A stretch of 33,428 nucleotides of DNA from Bacteroidales bacterium (GTDB taxonomy: Bacteria > Bacteroidota > Bacteroidia > Bacteroidales > Bacteroidaceae). Made by a program: the position numbers and the translations under genes. The stretch lies in NCBI GenBank assembly GCA_022788345.1, contig JALFTM010000177.1:1-33428 (forward strand), in the 5' to 3' direction. Under the pieces are notes generated by a model that was not told where the DNA came from, ran no database searches, and saw only the letters and a list, made by a program, of their open reading frames with translations. Positions 31,043-33,428 of the stretch are shown one piece after another. Within the stretch, counting starts at the first letter, position 1. Each line of letters begins with the position of its first letter.

Positions 31043-31072
31043 TTGGCTGCGTTATGTTTTTTTTTATCTTTG
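31043..31072 (+). promoter_or_regulatory. Putative promoter of the peptide/radical SAM locus
   Basis: TTGG (31043-31046), 18 bp, TATCTTTG (31065-31072); about 110 bp upstream of the first 35-aa peptide ORF. Confidence 0.5.
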
Positions 31073-31185
31073 CTCCGATTAAAATTGGAGATGAGTTTCG
31101 GCATTGCAGTTTTATCATCACAAACGCATCTACCACTAAACTCACTAACTCCCCTTAATGTTTTATCTAATTCATATTCAACTTT

Positions 31186-31293
31186 ATGAAAATTACTTAT
31201 AAGGTTTCAACAACACAAGAGAAAATTGCCTTTTGGGGATGCTTTGCGGTTTGTTGCAAACGAGTGAACTCATATTCAAAAGGTATCCTTTAA
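31186..31293 (+). CDS. Putative 35-aa Cys-containing peptide, copy 1 (candidate RiPP precursor)
   Basis: ATG..TAA, MKITYKVSTTQEKIAFWGCFAVCCKRVNSYSKGIL. Below the ORF-track cutoff. Intact in both duplicate copies with 3 synonymous and 3 conservative changes. Confidence 0.65.
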   Translation: MKITYKVSTTQEKIAFWGCFAVCCKRVNSYSKGIL

Positions 31294-31313
31294 TTCTCTT
31301 CAAGCATATCTTC

Positions 31314-31402
31314 ATGGGCTACTACCAAGGCTTTGAATACACCCGAAGATGAGGGGACGAAGACGAGGACGAAATGGAATACCTTTTAACGGCGAAGTCC
31401 TC
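31314..31402 (+). pseudogene. Decayed copy of the 66-aa small protein gene
   Basis: MGYYQGFEYTRR then TGA at 31350-31352 (CGA in copy 2), plus loss of one G in CTTGTTAAC to CTTTTAAC; then truncated at the duplication junction. Confidence 0.7.
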
Positions 31403-31431
31403 TAATGTTTTATCTAATTCATATTCAACTT

Positions 31432-31539
31432 ATGAAAATTACTTATAAGATTTCAACAACACAAGAGAAAATTGCCTTTTGGGGATGCTTTGCGGTTTGT
31501 TGTAAGCGAGTGAATGCATATTCAAGAGGTATCCTTTAA
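31432..31539 (+). CDS. Putative 35-aa Cys-containing peptide, copy 2 (candidate RiPP precursor)
   Basis: ATG..TAA, MKITYKISTTQEKIAFWGCFAVCCKRVNAYSRGIL; 20 bp upstream of the 66-aa ORF. Confidence 0.65.
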   Translation: MKITYKISTTQEKIAFWGCFAVCCKRVNAYSRGIL

Positions 31540-31559
31540 TTCTCTTCAAGCATATCTTT

Positions 31560-31760
31560 ATGGGCTACTATCGAGGCTTTGAATACACCCGAAGACGACG
31601 GAACGAAGACGAAGGTGAAATGGAATACCTTGTTAACGGCGAATGGGAATTGGCATCCGATCTGAAAGAACTCGCAGCAGAAATGCGCTATTGGACAGAA
31701 GAATGGGCTGCTGAACTCTATGAAGATGGTGAAAATTTGATCTCTTGGGCAGGCGAATAG
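31560..31760 (+). CDS. 66-aa acidic, Trp/Tyr-rich small protein (unknown; possible alternative precursor, partner or immunity protein)
   Basis: MGYYRGFEYTRRRRNEDEGEMEYLVNGEWELASDLKELAAEMRYWTEEWAAELYEDGENLISWAGE; between the 35-aa peptide ORF and the radical SAM gene on the same strand. Confidence 0.6.
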   Translation: MGYYRGFEYTRRRRNEDEGEMEYLVNGEWELASDLKELAAEMRYWTEEWAAELYEDGENLISWAGE

Positions 31761-31780
31761 CCCTATTTTTTTACTCACAT

Positions 31781-31819
31781 GAGGTGGGACTTATCGGAGG
31801 ATATGTCTCACCTCTTTTT
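31781..31819 (+). terminator. Intrinsic-terminator-like attenuator between small ORFs and radical SAM gene
   Basis: Arms GAGGTGGGAC (31781-31790) / GTCTCACCTC (31805-31814), 10 bp with one G.U, followed by TTTTT (31815-31819). Confidence 0.75.
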
Positions 31820-31828
31820 GCAAAGAAC

Positions 31829-33148
31829 ATGGACAAAGAAAAAGAAATAAGCCCATTGAAGCAATATCGCTTTCCGGCTAAGCTAAGAGTAGTGCGCCAC
31901 AAAGGAAAAATCATTGTTATAGCTATAGATACCGCCAATTGGATTGTTTTAGAAAATGAAGCACAACTTACGTTCTTTCAGCTCTTACAGCAATTTGCCT
32001 TGGAAGAAGCCTTAGCACGCTTTACGGGAAAGTTTGAAGATGCACAATATACAGTGATACAAGTTGAGGCTCGTAACTTTGAATTTCAAGATATAAGGCC
32101 GATAGCATATGGCAAAGTCATGCAGTTTCACCTGACCAACGGATGCAATATGCGTTGCCCACATTGTTATATGCACTCTGGTGAAAAAGCAGATGAACTG
32201 ACAACAGAAGAGATATTCGAAGTGTTAGAACACTTTCGTGCAGGAGGTGGTGATGAAGTCACTTTCACAGGTGGAGAAGTGCGTATGCGAAAGGATCTTC
32301 TTGCAATTGTCCAAAAAGCTTTTAGCTTAGGTTTGGGAGTGGTTATCTTGACAAATGGAACACTTTGGGACAAAACACTTATCCGTACTTTTGCACCTTA
32401 TCTAAAGAGAGTTCAGATAAGTGTCGATGGCTTTTCAGAAGAGGAAAATGCAAAAGTGCGGGGCAAGGGAAATTTCACAAAAGCACTACAGGCGATAGAT
32501 GATTTTCTACAAGCCGATGTTCCAACAGATATCGGTATCACACCATGGTTTGACGATGAGCTTGAGCGAAAGGCAAATAGCTTCTCAGAGTTCGGAAAGT
32601 CTTTGCTAAAGAAATATGCAGGAAAGCCTTTCAATATACGCTATACCAGCGAACTCTTAGATGGCCGAGACATACATTTCAGTGCAGAAGAGAAACTAAA
32701 ATATGAAATGATTGTCAATAAAATTTACATCGATGTGATGGGCAATGAGATGGATATGCCTTTCGTAGAATTGCATCGCAAGCATCTCATAGACAACAAC
32801 TGCGAGTTTGGCAACCTAACCATAGAATCGAATGGCAATGTCTATTTCTGCCCAACATTGTCTGTGCTTCCAACAACCGTGAATGTGCGGACACATACCT
32901 TTCAAGAAATATGGGAATACTCAAAGCAGGCAACCAAAGTATCTGATATAGACAACCTTGAGCCTTGTAGGCATTGCCACTTGAAATATATTTGCGGAGG
33001 AGGGGGTTGCCGTATAAAATTCTTCAAAGACTTCCACAAAGAAGAATCGTACAAAATAGCACATCATCCTCAACGCTATTGTTCTCAAGAAGTAAAAGAC
33101 GAAGTTTATGACTTGATGCTTCGCACTAATGAACTTCTCTTTCAATAA
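31829..33148 (+). CDS. Radical SAM/SPASM peptide-modifying enzyme with putative N-terminal RRE (PqqD-like) region
   Basis: rSAM motif CNMRCPHCY (CX3CX2C), TFTGGEV; SPASM pattern CEFGNLTIESNGNVYFC (CX10GX4C) and CRHCHLKYICGGGGC ... C. N-terminal KGKIIVIAIDTANWIVLENEAQLTFFQLLQQFALEEALARF is PqqD-like. Start moved to MDKEKE at 31829 because the 31745 start would place the attenuator inside the CDS. Confidence 0.88.
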   Translation: MDKEKEISPLKQYRFPAKLRVVRHKGKIIVIAIDTANWIVLENEAQLTFFQLLQQFALEEALARFTGKFEDAQYTVIQVEARNFEFQDIRPIAYGKVMQFHLTNGCNMRCPHCYMHSGEKADELTTEEIFEVLEHFRAGGGDEVTFTGGEVRMRKDLLAIVQKAFSLGLGVVILTNGTLWDKTLIRTFAPYLKRVQISVDGFSEEENAKVRGKGNFTKALQAIDDFLQADVPTDIGITPWFDDELERKANSFSEFGKSLLKKYAGKPFNIRYTSELLDGRDIHFSAEEKLKYEMIVNKIYIDVMGNEMDMPFVELHRKHLIDNNCEFGNLTIESNGNVYFCPTLSVLPTTVNVRTHTFQEIWEYSKQATKVSDIDNLEPCRHCHLKYICGGGGCRIKFFKDFHKEESYKIAHHPQRYCSQEVKDEVYDLMLRTNELLFQ

Positions 33149-33150
33149 AG

Positions 33151-33186
33151 AAAGAGCTTGACTACGAAATGTAGTCAAGCTCTTTT
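33151..33186. terminator. Strong terminator after radical SAM gene
   Basis: AAAGAGCTTGACTAC (33151-33165) gaaat GTAGTCAAGCTCTTT (33171-33185), perfect 15-bp stem, A/T flanks in both directions; the downstream ORF is convergent. Confidence 0.9.
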
Positions 33187-33224: not shown

Positions 33225-33428
33225 TCACGACTCTCCTTCAACCTCTGCCCCAGTGAATTGTTTCATCATCTCGCTCACATAGCCTTTATGAGCGTAGAGA
33301 TTTTTGAAGCGGTGGATGTTGTTCGGCACTATTTGCAAGCGTCCGTCTTCCGTTTCATGAAAGACACAGTCAAGCAATCCAACCAAACGCTCTGCCTGAC
33401 TCTTCGTGATGCCATAACGCTCCGCCAA
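33225..33428 (-). CDS. C-terminal fragment of an unidentified protein (truncated by window edge)
   Basis: Open to the window end on the minus strand: ...LAERYGITKSQAERLVGLLDCVFHETEDGRLQIVPNNIHRFKNLYAHKGYVSEMMKQFTGAEVEGES. No family recognised. Confidence 0.5.
   Translation of the reverse strand: MAERYGITKSQAERLVGLLDCVFHETEDGRLQIVPNNIHRFKNLYAHKGYVSEMMKQFTGAEVEGES

Follow-up and report, generated by a model that had tools for sequence, protein, structure and literature searches.

Near the end of a 33.4-kb contig from a Bacteroidota-type genome lies a RiPP-like locus (31186-33148, plus strand); the whole stretch of DNA analysed, 33,428 nucleotides, is referred to here as the window. On the plus strand, two 35-aa peptide ORFs are followed by a 66-aa ORF, a hairpin and an enzyme with a predicted RRE and with radical SAM and SPASM domains (RRE-rSAM-SPASM). 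Because the contig ends at 33428, 280 bp beyond the enzyme gene, the downstream side of the locus is cut off. The features are as follows:

31065-31072, plus strand: candidate Bacteroidota -7 promoter element (TAnnTTTG), TATCTTTG, read by eye from the sequence
31156-31631, plus strand: tandem duplication with a unit of about 246 bp (31156-31385 and 31403-31631), from repeat comparison
31186-31293, plus strand: putative precursor peptide, copy 1, MKITYKVSTTQEKIAFWGCFAVCCKRVNSYSKGIL, whose leader and C[F/Y]xxC core recur next to the enzyme at related loci
31314-31352, plus strand: cut-short remnant of the 66-aa gene, with a stop after MGYYQGFEYTRR, in the first duplication copy
31432-31539, plus strand: putative precursor peptide, copy 2, MKITYKISTTQEKIAFWGCFAVCCKRVNAYSRGIL, from its ORF and a match to the precursor pattern
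31560-31760, plus strand: acidic small protein of 66 aa, coding-like codon score
31781-31814, plus strand: attenuator-like hairpin with a T run after it, separating the precursors from the enzyme, z = -4.7
31829-33148, plus strand: predicted RRE - radical SAM - SPASM peptide maturase, 439 aa, ATG start, from Pfam, NCBIfam and a structure model
33151-33185, no strand assigned: terminator hairpin of 15 pairs, folding z = -6.7

Every part listed in an earlier note on this DNA (the two Cys peptides, the 66-aa ORF, the hairpin, the enzyme and the terminator) was found at this locus, the terminator after the enzyme being the hairpin at 33151-33185. The putative promoter of that note has a Bacteroidota-style -7 box that is readable by eye, but gains no support from a promoter scan, which covers sigma-70 types only and returned sites no more numerous than in shuffled sequences. 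The remark that the peptide has no GG leader site holds, and no transporter, protease or immunity gene was seen in the window, nor a recurrent one among its relatives. The absence of a protease is thus correct for the window locus, but an M42 peptidase is present in one window-type relative and in the whole sister clade described below. Beyond the terminator, a minus-strand neighbour (33225-33428), cut by the contig end, carries the motif DCxxHE...VPxxxHxxxxHxGYV. Members of its family also lie near the enzyme at L011:6336-7034, L035:5023-5541 and L036:13642-14001 (L numbers denote individual loci). Judged by eye from this motif, the family looks HNH-nuclease- or toxin-like, and a Pfam search gave no firm assignment.

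The window peptides contain three Cys each, and the putative leader stretch MKITYKVSTTQEK has I3, Y5 and V7 as motif residues. The two duplication copies, at a spacing of 246-247 bp, share 29 nt at 100% identity and 202 nt at 93% identity, which puts a measure on the peptide duplication seen earlier; both peptide ORFs are intact. Copy 2 differs from copy 1 by three residue changes and three silent changes, corresponding to a dN of 0.04 and a dS of 0.15, so that silent substitutions per site exceed changing ones. The 66-aa ORF is likewise present and has coding-like codon use, but its conservation is not borne out: searches of 57 further genomes of the genus and of plasmids gave no homologue, and none was seen at related loci. 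Although its codon use looks real, we rule out the 66-aa protein as a core part of the system, and it appears not to be a conserved part of the family.

The attenuator-like hairpin described earlier, on the other hand, has equivalents at the same place in relatives. Specifically, a strong hairpin lies between peptide and enzyme in 9/9 loci tested (the window and 8/8 relatives), with z from -3.2 to -6.1, and the hairpins in this gap differ in sequence among loci. Such a layout would be expected where the precursor must outnumber the enzyme.

In the window enzyme, Pfam detects both domains named in the earlier note, Radical_SAM (90 bits) and SPASM (31.5 bits), and the radical SAM CX3CX2C motif is present as CNMRCPHC at residues 106-113. 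The RRE that this note had called PqqD-like finds no PqqD match in Pfam, but its fold matches are to RREs. When modelled alone (pLDDT 87), residues 1-95 resemble the RREs of TbiB1, CteB, ThcOx and MccB; each of these matches is weak (E 0.03 or worse), yet all high-probability matches are of one kind. A sequence search of the same region against PDB chains returned chance matches only, and we therefore assign the N-terminal domain (about residues 1-95) as a predicted RRE on the basis of structure. The AlphaFold model of the whole enzyme (mean pLDDT 85) has CteB, SkfB and SuiB, all RiPP maturases, as its nearest folds, with Foldseek TM-scores of only about 0.4-0.55 and an identity of 14-19% to the nearest solved folds, CteB and SkfB. 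An anaerobic sulfatase maturase (anSME), the alternative raised earlier, was rejected, since neither the window nor the recurrent neighbours include a recognisable sulfatase and an RRE-like domain is present. In the SPASM domain, the motif at residues 388-395 (ICGGGGC) reads CX4C through an in-frame extra Gly, whereas all relatives covering this motif have CX3C. This calls for caution, as the window copy may differ or be impaired; its frame is intact and its codon score is coding-like.

Comparison across relatives links the peptide to the enzyme. As a precursor pattern, we used a small ORF on the strand of the enzyme with M-x-[IVL]-x-[YWF]-x-[VIW] followed by C[FY]xxC, and the set consisted of 15 window-type loci (the window and 14 relatives). 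Such an ORF lies beside the enzyme in all 15 loci, with two copies in the window and one elsewhere, and in 0/600 shuffled regions, a null that is optimistic because these loci had themselves helped to define the pattern. Most of the peptides had been noticed earlier, when no pattern yet existed, immediately upstream of enzymes that were found independently. The shared motif also occurs in Clostridia, on a Treponema plasmid and in the sister clade, and the peptide-enzyme pair is kept in three phyla (Bacteroidota, Spirochaetota and Clostridia). The claim that the 35-aa peptide is the substrate thus survives the refutation test set for it earlier, conservation beside the enzyme in related genomes, and on this conservation the RRE-rSAM-SPASM enzyme very likely acts on the peptide. 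The core proposed at that time, of the WGCxxxCC type, has to be replaced: what is conserved is C[F/Y]xxC, while the W and the second C of the CC pair vary. In window-type precursors neither Cys of C[F/Y]xxC varies and the residue after the first Cys is always F or Y; in the sister clade it is F. Across the family, precursor length is 33-45 aa and the number of Cys 2 to 5. Taken together, the CX3CX2C motif and SPASM domain, the predicted RRE (with its weak E-values) and the conserved precursor gene beside the enzyme point to a RiPP locus of the RRE-rSAM-SPASM kind. At L013:4944-6330, the enzyme gene is split over two frames, by a frameshift or an assembly error, next to an intact peptide gene.

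Bacteroidales, Spirochaetia and Clostridia all contain relatives of the enzyme, and a tree of these enzymes separates a window type (18 rows, including Clostridia and the Treponema plasmid) from a sister clade (8 rows) with support of 97/91. The nearest kin of the window enzyme, L035 and L036, reach 57% identity at most. The distribution of the locus is patchy: it is present in 1/58 genomes of the genus, in 12/399 genomes of the family, counting both clades, and in 2/393 of an order-wide sample. Three layouts are seen. In the window-type layout of Bacteroidales and Spirochaetia, the peptide is followed by the rSAM gene; in L008 an M42 peptidase follows the enzyme, and in L007 an SNF2 helicase overlaps the enzyme gene. 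In Clostridia and on the Treponema saccharophilum plasmid pTS1, the order is rSAM - SNF2 helicase - class I methyltransferase - peptide (L045, 2721-5916; L039, 8245-11835; L055, 9707-12749, on pTS1), with two peptides after the methyltransferase on pTS1. The sister clade, in Bacteroidota and Spirochaetia, has the order M42 peptidase - peptide - rSAM - SNF2 helicase, and its peptides (34-37 aa) share a nearly invariant core, [AS]MYCF[KR]xCD[VK]N[QRK]N (MYCFKxCDxNQN). A phage origin was rejected, as there was no phage match and IMG/VR contained nothing close to the window enzyme, and so was a plasmid origin, the sole plasmid relative being distant, in Treponema saccharophilum. One IMG/VR contig (L075) carries a sister cassette, and no viral-looking gene was seen on it.

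L035 and L036 represent two species of one genus, and their comparison bears on how fast the precursor changes. Identity is mostly 85-100% across the enzyme gene and its near flanks and 63-78% in the peptide gene; correspondingly, dN is 0.23 for the peptide and 0.03 for the enzyme. Identity drops sharply and locally over the peptide gene alone, as if the precursor had been swapped as a cassette. This fast change and the duplicated peptide gene of the window together suggest that the precursors diversify or are exchanged as cassettes, in the manner of competition systems; this is no more than suggestive, because the fast change concerns a single species pair. The window locus is best read as a minimal form with a fast-changing precursor.

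In the sister clade, the cassette adjoins genes resembling phage-defence components. Six Bacteroidota loci of this clade are independent and have enough flank (L040, L041, L043, L044, L072 and L073, with L075 a near-copy of L072), and each has an RdrB-like gene no more than about 5 kb away; in L040 this gene and the helicase share a strand, with 15 bp between them. Three of these RdrB-like genes score 152-179 bits against NF041744, under its cut-off of 800. L041 additionally has an RdrA-like gene (82 bits). The SNF2 helicases of the family come close to the DpdE/ZorD models, all under curated cut-offs, and no RdrB-like gene was found at the Spirochaetia sister loci L058 and L059. Between the SNF2 helicase and the RdrA-like gene of L041, a 223-aa protein (L041:3492-4163, minus strand) has a nucleotide-cyclase look by eye and no match in NCBIfam. 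Beside window-type loci, PADLOC returned only Cas6 near L005, in a gene (L005:2716-3492) about 1.3 kb upstream of the L005 peptide. Within the window, no SNF2 helicase, M42 peptidase or RdrB-like gene was found, nor was any defence gene recognised near the locus; the family's helicase is not in the window genome at E <= 1e-30, and a helicase of this family acting in trans was rejected on that ground. A defence role at the window locus can therefore be read only across from its cousins.

Several known systems resemble parts of the family. Streptosactin (GggA/GggB; StsB, NF045574) of Streptococcus likewise pairs a short Cys precursor with an rSAM/SPASM maturase, and the search against NCBIfam maturase models, suggested earlier and now run, gave StsB as the best model at 130.7 bits; this is far under its cut-off of 625, StsB family membership was accordingly rejected, and no equivalog model fits the window enzyme. 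The two Cys of streptosactin form S-to-alpha-carbon links, Cys25-Ser28 and Cys31-Gly34 (PMC8172795). Unlike streptosactin, whose Cys are six apart, the window peptides have the leader M-x-I-x-Y-x-V and the core C[F/Y]xxC (spacing i,i+4), and the window family occurs in other phyla, with no Rgg/SHP quorum-sensing genes seen. CteB (SCIFF/ranthipeptide) and SkfB (sactipeptide) share the RRE, the radical SAM barrel and an SPASM or twitch Fe-S domain. SCIFF precursors, however, have six Cys against 2 to 5 in the family and other operon partners, and membership in the SCIFF/ranthipeptide group (CteA/CteB) was rejected, the window peptides having three Cys and the SCIFF maturase model TIGR03974 not being among the best 25 NCBIfam families listed for the window enzyme. 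SuiB/WgkB (streptide, KxxxW) has the same RRE-rSAM-SPASM fold, and the window peptide happens to hold KIAFW; a streptide-like KxxxW crosslink was rejected, as the motif is not conserved in relatives and the WgkB model scores 86.7 bits, far below its cut-off of 650. Finally, the sister cassettes with their SNF2 helicases recall RADAR (RdrA/RdrB), Zorya ZorD and DISARM DrmD through the helicase and the adjoining RdrB-like and, in L041, RdrA-like genes, but all their scores are below curated cut-offs and the window, which ends 280 bp beyond the enzyme gene, contains no such gene, so that the window locus is not a member of a RADAR-like/SNF2 cassette. RADAR, Zorya and DISARM are not known to include a peptide or rSAM gene. 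Within the sources searched, the family appears to be new among RRE-rSAM-SPASM RiPPs; the rSAM RiPP atlas of Clark and Seyedsayamdost (2022), outside these sources, may hold it as an unnamed node.

We propose that the peptide would be made in excess over the enzyme, through the attenuator hairpin. The RRE of the enzyme would then bind the leader strand M-x-I-x-Y-x-V of the 35-aa peptide; by analogy with RRE-leader complexes such as TbiB1, this alternating hydrophobic leader could bind as an added strand. The radical SAM/SPASM core would modify the C[F/Y]xxC core, most likely by thioether formation of the sactipeptide or ranthipeptide type, in which Cys19, Cys23 or both would be joined to a carbon of the backbone or of a side chain; such thioether chemistry is plausible for the window enzyme. 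The leader may be removed by a peptidase encoded elsewhere, a role that position suggests for M42 in the cousins, and any export would run through functions encoded elsewhere. The matured peptide would most likely be a toxin or defence component: a role in microbial conflict is suggested by the genes next to the cousins, which encode a helicase, a peptidase and phage-defence-like proteins. Taken jointly, RRE binding, C[F/Y]xxC modification, attenuation and a conflict product make up our main reading, a RiPP family used in microbial conflict, to which we give a probability of roughly 60%.

What kind of conflict product this might be can be read in two other ways. A secreted, streptosactin-like sactipeptide bacteriocin, exported by a transporter encoded elsewhere and killing close relatives, would agree with StsB as the best NCBIfam model, with the duplicated and fast-changing precursor and with the toxin-like neighbour. 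It would, however, have to do without a GG leader site, neither the window nor, as a recurrent feature, its relatives offer a transporter, protease or immunity gene, and the recurrent partners of the cousins (helicase, M42 peptidase and methyltransferase) are cytoplasmic; we entertain this reading tentatively, as somewhat improbable. An intracellular anti-phage component, working with or replacing a helicase-based defence system, draws on the RdrB-like genes near all six independent, sufficiently flanked Bacteroidota loci of the sister clade, on the likeness of the helicases to DpdE/ZorD and on the helicase overlapping the enzyme gene in L007, a window-type relative. Against this stand the lack of a helicase, peptidase or RdrB-like gene in the window and of an RdrB-like gene at L058 and L059, the RdrB-like scores under the curated cut-off, and the fact that clustering in defence islands is no proof of a single system, and we consider this role doubtful.

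The chemistry and the state of the locus leave room for two further alternatives. SPASM enzymes catalyse several kinds of crosslink, and the position behind the first Cys is always aromatic (F/Y in the window type, F in the sister clade), as would suit a Cys-independent radical modification, such as an aromatic cyclophane or epimerisation at this residue, instead of a thioether. The invariance of both Cys of C[F/Y]xxC, and the presence of the thioether formers StsB, CteB and SkfB among the nearest sequence or fold matches, make such a modification unlikely, to about the same degree as the anti-phage role. That the window holds a decaying or inactive copy, an acquired locus with an impaired enzyme, would be consistent with the CX4C insertion in the SPASM motif, the shortened duplicate of the 66-aa gene with its early stop and the absence of the locus from the other 57 genomes of the genus. 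We consider decay quite improbable, given two intact peptides, an intact enzyme frame with a coding-like codon score, and a dN of 0.04 against a dS of 0.15 between the peptide copies.

Few RiPPs from Bacteroidota have been characterised. For the conflict RiPP family that we favour, the chemistry is directly testable, given its clear leader motif, the two Cys of the core, its natural variants and a system of only two genes. The sister-clade cassette together with its RdrB-like (in L041 also RdrA-like) genes is possibly a new defence system with a RiPP module, and in the literature searched, which covered few subscription journals, no paper ties RiPP radical SAM enzymes to RdrA/RdrB or SNF2 in this way. 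A bolder view, which we hold to be slightly less probable than the anti-phage role as such, makes the window a minimal form of an intracellular anti-phage RiPP class whose full form is M42 - peptide - rSAM - SNF2 beside RADAR-like genes. If true, a RiPP would here work in immunity and not as an antibiotic that is secreted, and a functional tie between the sister clade and its SNF2 helicases and RdrB-like deaminases, should there be one, would join radical-SAM peptide chemistry to phage defence.
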